Source: a virus. From it: a stretch of 30,088 nucleotides of DNA. The notes beneath the pieces are model-generated. The model did no database searches and was not told the origin of the DNA. It saw only the letters and a list, made by a program, of their open reading frames with translations. Position 1 is the stretch's first letter. Every line of letters begins with the position of its first letter. The DNA is taken from positions 1 through 30,088 of IMG/VR virus record IMGVR_UViG_3300024520_000357; one strand, 5' to 3'. Made by a program: the position numbers and the translations under genes. Positions 8,501 through 28,977 of this stretch are shown piece by piece.

Positions 8501-8769
8501 AGCGTTTGGAAGAATACCGCTATTTCAACGCGATCGACAAAAACGGAAATACTTGTAATTTGTTGCTATCTCCGTTTGAGGTTGCACTATCAAAACAGCG
8601 GATCGAGGAATACCCAGAAGTGAGAACATGGAAACCGGATCCGTGGGCTCCACCACAACCAGGCCCAACGCTTCCAAACCCTCCAAGACTTGATCCTCTT
8701 CGGGTCGGTGGTGTCTTCGCTTGTGTTCTGGTTGTCTTGTTTCTGCTCGTTAATTGTGGGTGTGGGTGA
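8497..8769 (+). CDS. hypothetical protein with C-terminal membrane segment, 90 aa
   Basis: The GTG at 8497 overlaps the previous stop (GTGA). An ATG at 8476 would add seven residues. The first 45 residues are charged and helical (KRLEEYRYFN, FEVALSKQRIEEY). A proline-rich segment (DPWAPPQPGPTLPNPPRLDP) follows, then one hydrophobic helix (VGGVFACVLVVLFLLV) and a cysteine-rich end (NCGCG). This tail-anchored topology could serve a membrane-linked early function, but none is known. TGATG links it to the methyltransferase gene. Confidence 0.5.
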   Translation: MKRLEEYRYFNAIDKNGNTCNLLLSPFEVALSKQRIEEYPEVRTWKPDPWAPPQPGPTLPNPPRLDPLRVGGVFACVLVVLFLLVNCGCG

Positions 8770-10421
8770 TGGATACAACATTGGAACCATCGTCATACTT
8801 TACAAAAACATCGGATCTCACACCGTGGGAAAAGAACCCCCGAAAGAATGATCATGCTGTTGATGAGGTGGCGGGATCAATCGAGCGCTTTGGCTTCTCA
8901 TCTCCGATAATCGCAAACCAGGAACTCAGAATAATAGCCGGGCACACCAGGTGGAAGGCAGCGCAAAAACTCGGTCTCGAATATGTGCCCGTTCGGGTTC
9001 TGGATCTCAATGATGCAGAATGTCAACTTCTCGCAATCGCTGACAACAAACTGGGAGAATTGGCCGATTGGGACGATGGGGTTTTGAACGATGTTCTCAA
9101 CCGACTACAGGACGAGGGGAAGGATCTAACCGGGATCGGATTCGATGAAGAGGAACTATCAACCCTATTAGAGCGGATCGACGATACCGAAGAGGTTGAT
9201 AAAGAATTGCCAGAACCCCAGCCGGTTATCGTGGACGTATCCGGAGAGATTCGGCAGGGTGATTGTATCGAGTTGATGAGGCAAATGGAGCCATGCTCGA
9301 TTGATGCCATAATTACCGATCCACCATACGGCATAAATTTCATGGGGAAAGGTTGGGATTGCTCCGTGCCAGGTTTGGAGTGGGCGCGGGAGTGCTTTCG
9401 AGTTCTCAAGCCAGGTGGCCACATTTTGGCATTTGGTGGAACCAGGACGATTCATCGGTTGACATGTGCGATTGAAGATGCACAGTTTGAGATACGCGAC
9501 CAAATTGCATGGATGCAATTCCAAGGCTTCCCAAAATCTCTCAATATATCGAAAAATATCGATGATATGGCGGGGGCGGTTCGGGAGGTTGTGGGGATGG
9601 GAGGCGCGAGGTGTTCCGATCTTGAGGCTGGGAGGCCGTGTAGTCATTCCGAAAGAGAGGAGAGGTCACAATCTGGGGGAACAGTTCACACCATGCGAAC
9701 CAAACCCAAAACCCCAGACGCGATCAAGTGGGACGGGTACGGAACAGGTTTGAAACCCAGCTACGAATTGGCAATACTGGCAAGAAAGCCAATCGAGGAA
9801 AGCACGATCACGAAACAGGTTTTGAAGACGGGAACCGGGGCTTTGAATATTGACGGGTGCAGATTCGCCTATGGTGACCCGTGTTGGGTTGGTCCACAGG
9901 ATGATCCGGGGAATAGGAATAATACACAGGAGAGGTTTTCTCATACTGTTCATTTACCACCCGTTTATTTGGAGTCATCCGATCTGGGAAGATGGCCAGC
10001 AAACATCTATCAATGCCCAAAACCGTCACGAGATGAGCGGGAGCGTGGGTGTGAGGATTTGGAGGCTGTGACAGGTGCCGAGGCTGTAGAACGAAAAGAA
10101 GGATCAGCGGGAAAAGACAACCCAAGAGCGGGAGCAGGTCGAACAGCGGAAACCGTGAAGAACAACCACCCAACGGTCAAACCCTTGGGAGTCATGAAGT
10201 GGCTGTGTAAACTGGTTGGAGGTCAACCGGGATCGGTGATCTTGGATACTTTCAGCGGTTCGGGAACTACAGGCTGTGCTGCTGTTCTCCAAGGCTTCAA
10301 CTTTATCGGTCTGGAAATGGATCCCCGATATGTGGAGATAAGCCGGGCCAGGTTGGCCTATTGGTCAGGAGGTGGTGAAGATTCCGAGGTGGATGATGGG
10401 AAAGGCTGGCAGACCGAGTAA
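8769..10421 (+). CDS. ParB-like domain fused to DNA methyltransferase, 550 aa
   Basis: The start is the ATG overlapping the previous stop (TGATG); a start at 8754 is disfavoured. Residues about 10-95 are ParB/sulfiredoxin-like: NPRKNDHAVDEVAGSIERFG, then IIAGHTRWKAAQKLGL and the trailing LLAIADNKLGE. From about residue 160 a class-beta amino-methyltransferase follows: catalytic DPPYG at residues 184-188 precedes the SAM-binding FSGSGTT at 495. HPTVKPLGVMKWL before motif I is also typical. The enzyme probably methylates an exocyclic amine (N6-adenine or N4-cytosine), likely to protect phage DNA from host restriction. The target site cannot be read from sequence. Confidence 0.92.
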   Translation: MDTTLEPSSYFTKTSDLTPWEKNPRKNDHAVDEVAGSIERFGFSSPIIANQELRIIAGHTRWKAAQKLGLEYVPVRVLDLNDAECQLLAIADNKLGELADWDDGVLNDVLNRLQDEGKDLTGIGFDEEELSTLLERIDDTEEVDKELPEPQPVIVDVSGEIRQGDCIELMRQMEPCSIDAIITDPPYGINFMGKGWDCSVPGLEWARECFRVLKPGGHILAFGGTRTIHRLTCAIEDAQFEIRDQIAWMQFQGFPKSLNISKNIDDMAGAVREVVGMGGARCSDLEAGRPCSHSEREERSQSGGTVHTMRTKPKTPDAIKWDGYGTGLKPSYELAILARKPIEESTITKQVLKTGTGALNIDGCRFAYGDPCWVGPQDDPGNRNNTQERFSHTVHLPPVYLESSDLGRWPANIYQCPKPSRDERERGCEDLEAVTGAEAVERKEGSAGKDNPRAGAGRTAETVKNNHPTVKPLGVMKWLCKLVGGQPGSVILDTFSGSGTTGCAAVLQGFNFIGLEMDPRYVEISRARLAYWSGGGEDSEVDDGKGWQTE

Positions 10422-19749: not shown

Positions 19750-20691
19750 ATGGCTATAGAGTTCGGTCGACAGGCCTATATCAAGCTGGGAGCTGAAACA
19801 ACTTGGGGCGTGGCGGCAGGGTCAACCCCTGTTGATAACCGTATCAATTCCAGTTCCCTATCTCGATCACAAGAACGCAATCGTAAAACCCATCTCAGTT
19901 CTTCGGGTGCAGCATTTCAGATCGACTCCTACGATGGATCTGAAATATGCGGTGGATCGATTAGTATGCCAATGCATTTTGAGGGTCAAGGATTGCTCCT
20001 ACAGGCGGCTTTGGGCTCCGTGGCCACCACAGGAACCGGGCCATATACCCACACGTTCACACCGACTTTGACAATTCCATCATTGACGATCAAAAACCAA
20101 CGAGGATCCGGAACATCGGAGGAGTTTTTGGGATGTAAAGTTGCATCCATGAATCTATCTTGTGAGGCTGGCGGTGAGTTGATGGGAAATTTTGAGTTTA
20201 TCGCTAAAACTGCTAACAATAGAGCGGCTGCACTGCCTGCCCCAGGATTTGGTGATGGTCGCGAGGTGTTGCATTTTGAAGCTGGACAATTGCTTTTTGC
20301 GGGTGTGAATTACGATATTCGTTCATTTTCTCTGGACCTAAATAATAGTCAGGAGCGGAGGCAGAACCTCGGAAGTAAGCTCACAGCAGAGCCCCAGCTA
20401 AATGACGTTCGGGAGGTTACCCTGTCAATTGAGGCAGATATGGCAGATGATGTTCTGTATTCGGTACAATTGAACGGGCTAACATCTGACGTTACAATCA
20501 CATTTCTCAACAGTGACTCCGATAGTTTTGAGATCCGGTTGCGGGATGCCTATCTTCGCGAGTATTCCGATGATGTGAACACTTTTGGCGTGATCACCCG
20601 ATCCATGACATTCGTGGGTCAGGGAGTTAGTCCAAATGAAGCACTGGAGATCAAGATCATCAATCAAGATGCATCCGCTGTAGGAAACTGA
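19750..20691 (+). CDS. major tail (tube) protein, 313 aa
   Basis: The position, directly before the tail assembly chaperone pair, is that of the major tail protein. The start follows AAGGAGA. The N-terminus (EFGRQAYIKLGAETTWGVA) matches long-tube proteins of siphophages. SISMPMHFEGQGLLLQAALG and VASMNLSCEAGGELMGNFEF suit a beta-barrel tube, and a repeated beta segment late in the protein (ITFLNSDSDSFEIRLRDAYL) could form an extra surface domain. At 313 residues it is longer than many tube proteins. Confidence 0.82.
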   Translation: MAIEFGRQAYIKLGAETTWGVAAGSTPVDNRINSSSLSRSQERNRKTHLSSSGAAFQIDSYDGSEICGGSISMPMHFEGQGLLLQAALGSVATTGTGPYTHTFTPTLTIPSLTIKNQRGSGTSEEFLGCKVASMNLSCEAGGELMGNFEFIAKTANNRAAALPAPGFGDGREVLHFEAGQLLFAGVNYDIRSFSLDLNNSQERRQNLGSKLTAEPQLNDVREVTLSIEADMADDVLYSVQLNGLTSDVTITFLNSDSDSFEIRLRDAYLREYSDDVNTFGVITRSMTFVGQGVSPNEALEIKIINQDASAVGN

Positions 20692-20714: not shown

Positions 20715-21236
20715 ATGAAAGATATACTCCGCGCAATCCAAGAGAGCGCAAAATTCACCCTGTCCATATTTGACGGGGCACTTCAAATTGAGGGGCGCAT
20801 ATTATCACCCGCTGAAACCGAGGCGGCTGGATTGACTTCATCCATGATAGCCACTCAGATGATGGGCAAGAAAGAACAAAGGGGCTTCGCTTCTTTACAG
20901 TCCAGAATTGCAGGTCGGGATTTTGCGGATCTTGAAGAGGGGCTGATCGAAGATCTGATAAAGGCCATGGGGACAATTCGACCCGAAAGCCTGACCAAAA
21001 TGGAGGAAAGCCAGGATCGGCTTTTGATCCAGATCGTGAAAAGGGCGAGCAGTGACGAGGGGAAAACGTGGGAGCGGTTACATCTCGTTTCAGGTGTCGA
21101 TCAACAGGATGCGGATCAAGGTCGGCTATGGGTTGGAATGATCACAAAAGAGGATCGCGGATCTATTCTTGCTCTTGCTCTCTCAGGACATGAGGCGGCT
21201 GTAACGAGATTGGAGATGTTTCGAAACGGATCCTGA
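20715..21236 (+). CDS. tail assembly chaperone, first frame (G-like), 173 aa
   Basis: The gene between the tail tube and tape measure in siphophages normally encodes a chaperone made in short and frameshifted long forms. This product is helical and acidic (ILRAIQESAKFTLSIF, LEEGLIEDLIKAMG, LALSGHEAAVTRLEMF). It ends FRNGS at UCC-UGA, directly beside the second frame. A normal stop yields the short form. Identity is by position and by the overlapping second frame. Confidence 0.75.
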   Translation: MKDILRAIQESAKFTLSIFDGALQIEGRILSPAETEAAGLTSSMIATQMMGKKEQRGFASLQSRIAGRDFADLEEGLIEDLIKAMGTIRPESLTKMEESQDRLLIQIVKRASSDEGKTWERLHLVSGVDQQDADQGRLWVGMITKEDRGSILALALSGHEAAVTRLEMFRNGS

Positions 21237-21441
21237 TTATGTTCATTTGATAGACATAATCGCGAGGTCTTACAATAAACTACCGTCAGAGGTTGCTGGT
21301 TTATCGTGGGAGGATCTTATGTTATCATTGCGGTGTATCCGTTCAAGATCCGACAGAGTAAAAAAAGTCTTGAGGCGAGCGGGTAAAAAGAACCCACCAC
21401 AGTCAACACTTTCAGTTTTTGAACTTGCGGATCTCCTCTGA
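21235..21441 (+). CDS. tail assembly chaperone, second frame (T-like) reached by +1 frameshift
   Basis: This frame lacks an ATG (only TTG at 21247) and a good ribosome site, and is open from 21205. It contains NKLPSEVAGLSWEDLMLSL, the typical T-region phrase of siphophage tail assembly chaperones. The preceding gene ends TCC TGA (21231-21236); slipping +1 there continues with GAT, giving a product of about 241 residues. Frame 0 to frame 1 requires +1 (or -2), not the common -1. The site resembles the +1 CCC-UGA shift of Listeria phage PSA. The exact shift position is inferred, limited to 21205-21236. Confidence 0.72.
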   Translation, partial: DYVHLIDIIARSYNKLPSEVAGLSWEDLMLSLRCIRSRSDRVKKVLRRAGKKNPPQSTLSVFELADLL

Positions 21442-23801
21442 TGCCTTCTACCATCGTCAAATACATATTGGACATTGAGACCGGGAAGTCTCGTGTCGAT
21501 GTTAAAAAGACAGAAAAGGCAGTCGGGGAATTAAATAAGGATCTCAAAAAGACAGAGAAGCAAGCCGATAAATCTGAGAAATCACTCATCAAAATGGGTT
21601 CAGCAAAAACCGCGATTGGGGTTGCTGCGAAAGCGGCCTTGGCTCTTGCTGCTGCTCTTGCTGCTGCATCTGCTGTAGCATTCAAGTTTACAAAAGACAT
21701 AGTTGATGCCACAAATGATCTGAATGATCTTCGAACAAAAACCGGATTGGCGACATCTACAATCCAGGGTTTGGGGTTGGCTTTCCAGGCGAGCGGTCAA
21801 GAGGCCAGCGGGGCGGCAGAGGGTTTATCTCAGCTTCCTGCTAAAATGGCAGAGATGGCCACAGAAGGATCCCGCGCAAATAAAGCGGCTAATAGGCTGG
21901 GGATCTCCTTGGTTGATCTTGAAGGCAATGCCAGATCCAATGATGAGGTATTTAGAGATGTTGTTGGAGCGATCCAGGCGGTGGAGGATCCAAGCCAAAG
22001 AGCAAAAGTGGCTTTTGAGTTGTTGGGTGAAAGTGCGGGACGATTGAACCAGGCGATAGGGGCGGGTGCTGAATTCTCCGCATTTATCGAAATGGCCAAA
22101 AAATTCGGTGTTGATACTGGACCCGAGGCATCAAAGGCAGCGGCTGATTTTCAGTCTGATATTGCATTGCTCAAGTTAGTGTTTGCTGGCACCCGTCAAG
22201 AGATTGGTGAAACGGTGGGGACGGTTGGAGATTTTGGCGGGATCATTCTTCTCGCGAGTACCCAATTGGTATTCCTTCGGGGGGCATTGGATGAGGGCAC
22301 GGTCTTGTTCACTGCCATTGGTGATACCGTTGAATACTTCATTGAAAAATTGGGTGGTTTAACAACCATAATTCTAAACCATACCGTTCCTGGTCTTGGG
22401 ACTTTGTACAACACAATTAAACAAGTCGATGAATTGACAGGTGGAAAGTTAGCAGAGGGTATTGGTGCATTGGGTGATGAGGCCAAGGGCGACTCATTGG
22501 AGTTTTTGGATCTGGCTCGCGGTATTGAGGCAGGGAATAAGGCGGTAGAAGAGTTCCTGAAAACAAGACAGAAACTATTGAATGCCCCAAAGATAAAGAT
22601 TGCAGGGATACCCGGTGGTGGCGGTACAGGTGGCGCGGGTGATGTTGATGCACCAGATACAAGCGGGATCGAGGCTGGTACCAAATTCTTGGATGACTTC
22701 ATAGCAAAGTCCAAAATCGTCACCGAGAAAGACCAACTTGAGGCAACATTCGCAGCGATTGAAGACGAGATCCGAAAGGTAGCGGAAGAAAGCGGGGCTT
22801 TTGTTTTGGGCATGGAGGCTCTTGATATTGCCACGAATGAGTACATGATCTCGGTTGCTGCTGTTAATTTGGAATTAAAGAAACTGGAGGAAAGCAAGGC
22901 GGCAGAGAAGCAAGCCGAAGCATTCGCCAAATTGGGCGACCAAATCACAAGGGCGGGGGATGGTCTTTCGACGTTGTTGACGGGTGATGTTTCCGGATTT
23001 ATGCGCGGGTTGACTCCGAAGATCGAGGAAGGAATAACAAGTGCAATCGGATCCGCTGGTGGCTCTGCTGGTGCGATGGCGATGGTCGCTCCTGTGGTTG
23101 GTGCCATACAATCCGTTTTTGGCGCGGCTGCACAAATTGGTCAAGCTGGATTGATTGATCCAGAAACCGGGGAAAGGGCCACAGATGCACGGGCAAAACA
23201 GTTAGCGGTTGAGAGCGTCGAGGAACGGATCAAAAACCAGGCGCGAGCAATTGAGATCGGAATGAAGGCATTGCCGGATATTTTGATTAAGGTATTGCCG
23301 GGGATCCTTGATGCTTTTGGCTTAATGCTGATTGATGTTCTGGTATCCTTACCCCGTTTATTCGCGGAATCTATGACTTCGGCATTGCAAGACGCCTTAC
23401 CAAGTGTTTTTGGTGATCCAAAGAAAAAGAAGAGCGGGGATGATGTTGATCCATCAGGTGGTTTTAAGGGAATTGCGACATTGATCAATATGCTTGCTGA
23501 TGCAATTAAATCGAGAGAATCGGGTGGGCGGATCCCCTTCGCTGAATCGGGTTTGAGATTTACCGGGCAATCCTCCGGGCTTGCGGTTCTCCATCCGGGG
23601 GAATTCGTGGTTCCCAGAACGGGCCAAGCAGGGCAAGAAGTCCAACGAGATCTCGGTTCTCAATCTGGGGGCGGTGGAATCACGATCAACGTTTCAGGAA
23701 CTATCGTAGAATCCAACGCTATAGACGAGTTGGCCAGGCGCATAGAGAATCGCTTTCTTGCTTTTGGCGGTGGTTCTTCTCCGCTGTTCGGGGGTGCATG
23801 A
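21441..23801 (+). CDS. tape measure protein, 786 aa
   Basis: The largest tail gene, overlapping the chaperone stop (TGATG). The N-terminus is charged and coiled (VKKTEKAVGELNKDLKKTEK), followed by hydrophobic stretches (AAKAALALAAALAAASAVAF at about 56-76; later AMAMVAPVVGAIQSVFGAA and IKVLPGILDAFGLMLIDVLV) that may contact the host membrane. The C-terminus is Gly-rich and polar (GSQSGGGGITINVSG). By the usual rule of about 0.15 nm per residue, the tail would be near 115 nm. A long antisense frame over it is a composition artefact. Confidence 0.93.
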   Translation: MPSTIVKYILDIETGKSRVDVKKTEKAVGELNKDLKKTEKQADKSEKSLIKMGSAKTAIGVAAKAALALAAALAAASAVAFKFTKDIVDATNDLNDLRTKTGLATSTIQGLGLAFQASGQEASGAAEGLSQLPAKMAEMATEGSRANKAANRLGISLVDLEGNARSNDEVFRDVVGAIQAVEDPSQRAKVAFELLGESAGRLNQAIGAGAEFSAFIEMAKKFGVDTGPEASKAAADFQSDIALLKLVFAGTRQEIGETVGTVGDFGGIILLASTQLVFLRGALDEGTVLFTAIGDTVEYFIEKLGGLTTIILNHTVPGLGTLYNTIKQVDELTGGKLAEGIGALGDEAKGDSLEFLDLARGIEAGNKAVEEFLKTRQKLLNAPKIKIAGIPGGGGTGGAGDVDAPDTSGIEAGTKFLDDFIAKSKIVTEKDQLEATFAAIEDEIRKVAEESGAFVLGMEALDIATNEYMISVAAVNLELKKLEESKAAEKQAEAFAKLGDQITRAGDGLSTLLTGDVSGFMRGLTPKIEEGITSAIGSAGGSAGAMAMVAPVVGAIQSVFGAAAQIGQAGLIDPETGERATDARAKQLAVESVEERIKNQARAIEIGMKALPDILIKVLPGILDAFGLMLIDVLVSLPRLFAESMTSALQDALPSVFGDPKKKKSGDDVDPSGGFKGIATLINMLADAIKSRESGGRIPFAESGLRFTGQSSGLAVLHPGEFVVPRTGQAGQEVQRDLGSQSGGGGITINVSGTIVESNAIDELARRIENRFLAFGGGSSPLFGGA

Positions 23802-27372: not shown

Positions 27373-28977
27373 TCAAATGCTGCACAAAACTTCGACCGAA
27401 GACAAAGCAGATATAGATTTTATTTGAACTGTATTTGATCCCTGAGCGCCAGTGCCTTTCTTGACGTCCACCGCGATAAGATTGCCAACACCAGAATAAC
27501 AGGACACATGGACCACAGCTTGTCCGAGATTGTGCGTTATTGTCGTCCAGGTATTGGCCACGAGATTGAGGGTGGTTACAGATCGATGATCATCAATGTC
27601 GATCTTTAGTTTTCCAGCATCAATTTTGAGTCCATCATTTCCACCGGCAAGATCAATAGCAAGAGATCCACCGGTTTTCAGTATTCCGTTTCCACCAGTG
27701 ATCGCGGCTTGGGCTCGTGCATTCGTGAAATACTGATTAGATGAGTTTTCACTCAAATCAGCGGTGCTTTTTCCGTTGAAATCAGTGTTGAAATTGCTGG
27801 ATTTATACGTGGTGACCGAAAGAGTACCTCCAACCTTTGTAATGTCTCCTCCCCCACTGATAGCAGCTTGGGCTCGTGCATTTGTAAAATACTGATTAGA
27901 TGAGTTTTCGCTCAAATCAGCGGTGCTTTTTGCATTAAATGAACTATTGAAATCCGAAGCCTTGAAAGTTGTAACAGATAGAACACCTGTTCCGGAGTTG
28001 TAAGCCAGATCACCCGAAACGGATATACTTGATCTTGCGTTGGCTTGGGTGAATTTACTGACTGAAAATTGACCCGTCCCTGAGTTATAGGCGAGATCTC
28101 CACCGGCAGAGAAAGCGGATCGGGCGTTTGTGTCGGTATACTTGGTAGCCGAAAGAACCCCGGTCCCTGAATTATAAGCGAGATCACCCGAAACGGATAT
28201 ACTTGCTCGTGCATTTGCTTGGGTGAATTTACTGACTGAAAACTGCCCCGTTCCTGAGTTGTAAGCCAGGTCTCCACCAGCCGAAAAAGCGGATCGTGCG
28301 TTTGCGTCTGTATATTTTGTGGAAGAAAGTACCCCAGTTCCTGAATTGTACGCGAGATCACCCGAGACGGATATGCTTGATCTTGCTCTTCCTGTTGTGT
28401 GGTAGAGGTTTGTAGATCCTTCGGTGATCTCATCTGAGTTTGCATCAACGGCCAAGGTAATTTGTCCAGCTGATACGGTCTTGGAGATTCCTGCTCCAGC
28501 CAGCATATCAACGCTAATCGCTCCTGCTCCTGAAATGTTTATTCCTTCTCCATCGGAAAGCTTCGCGACAATCTCAGCCGATGTTAGTCCAGTCTCAATC
28601 GCTACCAGGTTCCCGGCTATTTGATTTCCTGATCCCGGTTGGGTTTTGGTCATGTATGTTTCGGTTCCGCCCGTGGCTCCGGTTAATACAAGTACATCAC
28701 CCTCTTTCAGTCCGTTGGCTTCGGTTTGGTTCGCTGAAAAATAAGCGGCCAAACTTGCAGCGGCTGCATTTACGGTAACAGATGAGATTAAGAGGCTATC
28801 AACCGAAAGCGCACCCGAAGCATTCACAGAAAGCAGATCGCTGGATCCTGCTGCGATGCTTGAGATGTAGCTTAATCCTGCTGCGTCTTGTTTTCGTACT
28901 AGATCATTGTTGTTGCTTGGTGCAGATGCAGCACGGATCGCGCCTTGGAACTCACTAATCGGATGATAATATTTCAT
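27373..28977 (-). CDS. repeat-containing tail fibre protein, 534 aa
   Basis: A virion adhesin candidate. The N-terminus is short and partly helical (MKYYHPISEFQGAIRAAS). The body carries five alternating 29-residue repeats built on DLAYNSGTG, then two 53-residue repeats with STADLSENSSNQYFTNARA. This kind of phrase is common in trimeric fibre shafts, for example in cyanophage and T4-like adhesins. The C-terminus (TTITHNLGQAVVHVSCYSG ... SSVEVLCSI) is a likely receptor-binding tip. The start follows AGGTGTCAAC. It is the last gene of a leftward fibre operon. Confidence 0.88.
   Translation of the reverse strand: MKYYHPISEFQGAIRAASAPSNNNDLVRKQDAAGLSYISSIAAGSSDLLSVNASGALSVDSLLISSVTVNAAAASLAAYFSANQTEANGLKEGDVLVLTGATGGTETYMTKTQPGSGNQIAGNLVAIETGLTSAEIVAKLSDGEGINISGAGAISVDMLAGAGISKTVSAGQITLAVDANSDEITEGSTNLYHTTGRARSSISVSGDLAYNSGTGVLSSTKYTDANARSAFSAGGDLAYNSGTGQFSVSKFTQANARASISVSGDLAYNSGTGVLSATKYTDTNARSAFSAGGDLAYNSGTGQFSVSKFTQANARSSISVSGDLAYNSGTGVLSVTTFKASDFNSSFNAKSTADLSENSSNQYFTNARAQAAISGGGDITKVGGTLSVTTYKSSNFNTDFNGKSTADLSENSSNQYFTNARAQAAITGGNGILKTGGSLAIDLAGGNDGLKIDAGKLKIDIDDHRSVTTLNLVANTWTTITHNLGQAVVHVSCYSGVGNLIAVDVKKGTGAQGSNTVQIKSISALSSVEVLCSI
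27640..28386 (-). repeat. tandem repeats in the tail fibre gene
   Basis: On the minus strand, five 87-bp units alternate in two types (SVSGDLAYNSGTGVL and SAGGDLAYNSGTGQF), spanning about 27960-28386. Two 159-bp units follow, at about 27640-27958; their cores align at exactly 159-bp offset (for example TACTGATTAG at 27731 and 27890). Identity is high at DNA level, so recombination could change shaft length. Unit borders are approximate. Confidence 0.85.

Follow-up and report, generated by a model that had tools for sequence, protein, structure and literature searches.

The window analysed here, the whole 30,088-base record IMGVR_UViG_3300024520_000357 of an uncultured virus in IMG/VR, raises the question of how the second of two overlapping reading frames is translated, and at which codon ribosomes would pass into it. 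The two frames, a G-like frame and a T-like frame, are small and lie between the tail tube and tape measure genes (Table 1), which is the G/GT layout. The T frame is +1 relative to G, is closed by a stop upstream and runs open from 21205 to a TGA at 21439-21441. The first-pass annotation had described a tail assembly chaperone pair joined by a +1 shift at UCC-UGA, where the G frame ends, and the elements that it listed are all present: the T segment in the +1 frame, the open reading frame at 20715-21236, the 32-base overlap (CGAGATTGGAGATGTTTCGAAACGGATCCTGA, ending GGA TCC TGA), the NKLPSEVAGLSWEDL core, a TTG at 21247, UCC as the last sense codon before UGA, and a potential fusion whose length, put at about 241 residues, is exactly that. 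The pair and the direction of the shift have held up in relatives, but the site has not. Our comparisons indicate that a +1 slip at UUU-CGA, rather than at UCC-UGA, very probably makes the second tail assembly chaperone of this phage, and the same signal is present in about sixty relatives.

Relatives were collected from viral contigs with G and T profiles, and collapsing these at 93% DNA identity over 300 bases left 63 non-redundant loci, the window included, with G identities that descend to about 34%. All of these loci are long enough to test, and in all 63 the T frame is +1 to G. Both frames are kept as protein in relatives (close ones are 73-85% identical in G), and because of this conservation the pair is judged to be more than a chance arrangement. 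The annotation had named -1 slippery sites in relatives as something that would speak against its reading; the -1 frames are never open through T, and a -1 frameshift is rejected on this ground. L145, an additional locus, was excluded from the set because it lies too near a contig end. At that edge (37-60) a 0-frame TAA stands 12-15 bases ahead of UUU_CGC, which reflects either an assembly error or a broken copy. No prophage copies were found in two scans of bacterial genomes, no relatives were recovered from viral contigs with a tape measure query, and no cultured relatives were found in a phage collection with G or T queries, where a terminase query gave only matches of about 25%.

In the window, UUU_C occupies 21219-21222, within the same overlap and 12 bases upstream of UCC. 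At this fixed in-frame site, UUU_C is found in 61 of the 63 loci, with UUU_U in one (L051) and GUU_U in another (L056); in a set of 31 clusters less than 75% identical, UUU_C occurs in 30 and UUU_CG in 22. An in-frame UUU followed by CGN is present in 48/63; across all 63 loci the A-site codons are CGC (29 loci), CGU (13), CGA (6), CCA (5), CUC (4), CUG (2), and CAC, CUU, UGU and UGA (one each). A 0-frame stop follows 2-5 codons past UUU in every locus except L056. When the overlaps of all relatives are intersected, each bounded by its upstream +1-frame stop and its 0-frame stop, the P-site codons possible in all of them are those from -3 to 0, where UUU is 0. Full re-pairing after a +1 slip is available at UUU in 62/63 loci and in 1/63 at each of the three preceding codons, against a background of 4.6% among G codons overall. 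Conservation also changes frame at this point: across 34 aligned relatives, the 0 frame has F in 100% and R in 74% and nothing conserved thereafter, whereas in the +1 frame F is conserved in 100% and so is the D at T position 4, though about half of the 0-frame genes have already ended there.

The codon itself appears to be constrained at the nucleotide level. Parsimony changes counted on a FastTree tree of 61 tips give no change at the third base of UUU, compared with 8-17 third-base changes at other well-kept twofold G codons (12 at the other invariant Phe codon); the exception among these is a Glu codon GAG with two, which lies inside the upstream element described below. The neighbours of UUU vary freely, with 16 changes at the third base of the A site and 9-16 at the E-site bases. 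CGG is missing from the A site (0/48, versus 101/430 CGN codons elsewhere in G), and here the residue in T may matter. RNAalifold applied to 23 relatives returned no conserved pairs around the site, and searches of the window and of two related contigs gave no tRNA genes that might affect the slip.

The two frames, their +1 relation and the site are thus all apparent from the alignment of relatives, and we regard it as highly likely that the G/GT pair is joined by a +1 slip of tRNA-Phe at UUU_CGA that yields a low-frequency fusion of 241 residues. Most ribosomes would read G through to the stop at 21234. In a minority, UUU (21219-21221) would occupy the P site while the arginine codon CGA awaits in the A site, where CGN would give time for the slip, and tRNA-Phe would move one base forward onto UUC (21220-21222) with perfect re-pairing. 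Reading would then resume at GAA ACG GAU CCU GAU and continue through T. The predicted GT fusion reads ...TRLEMF-ETDPDYVHLIDIIAR... (or ...RLEMF-ETDPDYVHLIDI...), with an expected join of LEMF-ETDPDYVHL and LEMFETDPDYVHLIDIIAR as the junction peptide. We infer that slippage is ribosomal rather than transcriptional, that it is +1 rather than -2, and that its efficiency is low.

A second constrained element precedes UUU by about 20 nt; in most relatives it is a Shine-Dalgarno (SD)-like AAGGAGG. GGAGG occurs between -30 and -15 of UUU in 48/63 loci. In 31 diverse clusters the longest match to the SD consensus averages 6.10, versus 4.18 +/- 0.23 after synonymous resampling; none of 5000 synonymous redraws reached the observed value, and no other window of the gene does as well. 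Codon -9 encodes varying amino acids (K, E, G, R, S, T, Q or M), and where GAG comes next the third base of this codon is nearly always G outside the GGA group. These patterns in the alignments indicate that AAGGAGG is under nucleotide-level selection in the clade, and it is probably a modulator of the slip in most relatives. Close to the site, an SD match of at least 4 is present in just 3/62. It is possible, though somewhat doubtful, that the +1 signal of the clade is a bacterial one in two parts, UUU_CGN and, about 20 nt upstream, AAGGAGG, which would modulate the slip through the anti-SD of 16S rRNA. The usual spacings from SD to slip site are 3 nt in prfB and about 10-14 nt in dnaX, and about 20 nt falls outside both; to our knowledge, this distance exceeds that of the known cases.

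The UCC-UGA shift, in which the stop codon would assist, draws its appeal from the window itself, where UCC UGA closes the 0 frame and the T frame follows directly, and from the eukaryotic antizyme shift site, which is UCC_U (PMC3498833). Had the site been used in this clade, NCC-UGA might have been kept, as the annotation proposed to check, but UCC-UGA is in the window alone: L002/L003 and L004/L016 read UCC UAA, and more distant relatives lack the site. L007 reads UUU CGC AAG UGA with UCC only past the stop, while in L095-type relatives (UUU CGC UGA) the earlier 0-frame stop makes a slip at UCC impossible. Moreover, re-pairing from UCC to CCU has a first-position mismatch, so that just 2/3 positions pair, and the conserved +1-frame residues F-x-x-D ahead of UCC would be left unexplained. 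Comparison with relatives leads us to reject UCC-UGA as the slip site; a shift there, which predicts the peptide NGSDYVHLIDIIAR, is extremely unlikely. A similarly slight chance is given to independent translation of T begun internally, for example at TTG 21247. This codon is ATG in 17 relatives and TTG in 8, but in the remaining 38/63 no start codon occupies this place, conservation in the T frame extends upstream of it, and the SD-like element is followed by a start codon at the usual distance (-17 to -9) in just 6/62 loci.

Several points weigh against a tRNA-Phe slip within a chaperone pair. Of the two Phe codons, TTT predominates in these genes (162/215), and the third-base test therefore draws its force from the comparison with other sites and not from TTT alone. 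The preference for CGN could be caused in part by a conserved arginine in G, and the relatives are metagenomic and partly non-independent. Neither G nor T has a Pfam or PHROG match, and AlphaFold models of the two folded separately (pLDDT 77 for G and 79 for T) have no match to a Protein Data Bank (PDB) fold at E <= 0.001. Tail assembly chaperones are highly diverged between phages, and a missing match to a known chaperone is not decisive; it is from gene order and layout that the pair is assigned as a putative G/GT tail assembly chaperone. Finally, a -2 slip at or near UUU, as in the tail genes of phage Mu (PMC5009743), ends in the same frame as a +1 slip, and comparative data alone do not decide between them. 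A -2 slip would add one Phe (predicted peptides LEMFFETDPDYVHL... and LEMFFETDPDYVHLIDIIAR), but the backward target codon of tRNA-Phe draws on the E-site codon, which is UCC, ACC, GGG, AGC, ACG, AAC, AUG or others. As backward re-pairing would call on bases that vary, this option is disfavored, and we consider it very unlikely.

A +1 slip at UUU_CGA places the window clade beside the UUU_CGN class of frameshift sites, which includes influenza A PA-X, plant amalgaviruses, fijiviruses and chronic bee paralysis virus. When defined in 2012 this class was regarded as active in eukaryotes, with cellular use left open, and the +1 junction of PA-X was read by mass spectrometry at UCC_UUU_CGU, with the same P-site slip model favored (PMC3498833). 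The clade shares with it the UUU_C P site, the CGN A site, the +1 direction and the lack of a detected conserved RNA structure, and the PA-X nine-mer is present exactly in L026, L039, L040 and L041. However, the class comprises RNA viruses of eukaryotes, whereas ours are tailed phages with a 0-frame stop 2-5 codons on in most and a conserved upstream SD-like element. The nearest precedent is in the HF1-group haloarchaeal viruses, for which TTT-CGC at the chaperone junction was remarked upon, without experiment, in six genomes (PMC7230728); the HF2 sequence bears this out, reading AAG TTT CGC AGA TAG. These are archaeal myoviruses with no SD-like AAGGAGG at an equal distance, and HF2 G protein has no detectable similarity to that of the window clade.

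Tailed phages are known to use -1, -2 or +1 shifts (PMC5009743). The lambda-type G/GT system resembles our pair in having overlapping frames placed between the tail tube and tape measure genes, and in the programmed frameshift predicted here to make the fusion. In lambda, as in most phages, the shift is -1 and takes place on a slippery run, whereas the window clade would shift +1 on UUU_C. By analogy with lambda, the tape measure would be bound by G and the tail tube brought in by GT, which would join the two. Listeria phage PSA, which the annotation had offered as a parallel, shares a +1 slip in the structural region, but its CCC_UGA involves a proline codon and belongs to the major tail protein gene tsh; the other PSA shift is in the capsid gene, and neither is in a G-T chaperone (PMC5009743). 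Bacterial prfB (RF2) also slips +1, and the window GGAG has prfB-like spacing, yet nearly all members of the clade have a sense codon rather than a stop in the A site, and in most the SD-like element is about 20 nt off. The full prfB layout (SD, 3 nt, NUU, UGA) is matched among relatives only by L056, L058 and L059; the window has the proximal GGAG alone, with CGA in the A site. L056 (3440-3475, and likewise its near copies L058 and L059) reads AGG GGG UUG GUU UGA in place of UUU_C, and both the distal element and UUU are missing. This layout is unlikely to be a sequencing error because it is present in three contigs, and these loci may slip at GUU_U or at GGG_U.

Table 1. Features of the tail assembly chaperone locus in the window.
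Feature	Position	Strand	Basis or remark
Tail tube protein gene	19750..20691	+	Phage_tube_2 PF18906 E 9.8e-36; phrog_290 E 4.6e-39
G-like tail assembly chaperone (putative), 0 frame, 173 aa	20715..21236	+	ATG 20715 to TGA 21236; 63 non-redundant relatives; gene order and overlapping two-frame layout
Distal SD-like element, weakened copy (GAGGCGG) of the AAGGAGG of most relatives	21192..21198	+	~20 nt upstream of UUU
Overlap where the shift must occur, 32 bases	21205..21236	+	+1-frame stop just before 21205; 0-frame stop 21234-21236
Proximal GGAG, 3 nt before UUU (prfB-like spacing)	21212..21215	+	Sequence; not conserved
Predicted shift site UUU_CGA; P-site tRNA-Phe UUU to UUC (21220-21222), one base skipped	21219..21224	+	UUU_C kept, full re-pairing, invariant third base
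T-like segment read after the shift (ETDPDYVHL...ADLL, stop)	21223..21441	+	Aligned in 35 relatives; F and D at start invariant
UCC UGA (site of the first-pass annotation), here only the 0-frame end	21231..21236	+	Present in the window alone
Tape measure protein gene	21441..23801	+	phrog_2276 E 4.2e-17; PF10145 E 9.3e-9

The surrounding genes follow a siphophage-type order of terminase, portal with a Mu F domain, protease, tail tube, the two-frame pair and tape measure. The terminase is common to all 13 of the related records tested, mostly near 30 kb, with full-length matches 48-60% identical. In one relative, the contig of L063 (G011), the terminase gene is divided between both contig ends (6-701 and 28788-29669), which suggests a complete, circularly closed genome of ~30 kb. 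Among the window genes, one with similarity to endolysins (E 1e-7) and a weak match to an Rz-like spanin (E 0.0019) suggest that the host is a bacterium. Elsewhere, the window encodes an N6/N4 DNA methylase fused to a ParB N-terminal domain (8754-10421) and, on the minus strand, a tandem-repeat protein of 534 aa (ANARSSISVSGDLAYNSGTGVLS and variants; 27373-28977), which has only a marginal BfiI_DBD match in Pfam and is possibly a tail fibre.

UUU_CGN is itself known, from influenza PA-X and from the remark on the HF1 group; what is new is its probable use in the chaperone of this phage clade, and in the part of the literature covered we found no published report of UUU_CGN in the chaperone of a bacterial phage. 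Frameshift prediction tools are without a forward-shift motif beyond short runs (PMC10885494). The natural A-site variants (CGC, CGU, CGA, CUN, CCA, CAC and UGU) provide material on the role of the A-site codon, and the SD-like element allows a direct look at anti-SD effects at long spacing. That some sixty probably bacterial phages keep UUU_C amid change indicates that this slip has arisen in viruses quite unlike one another.
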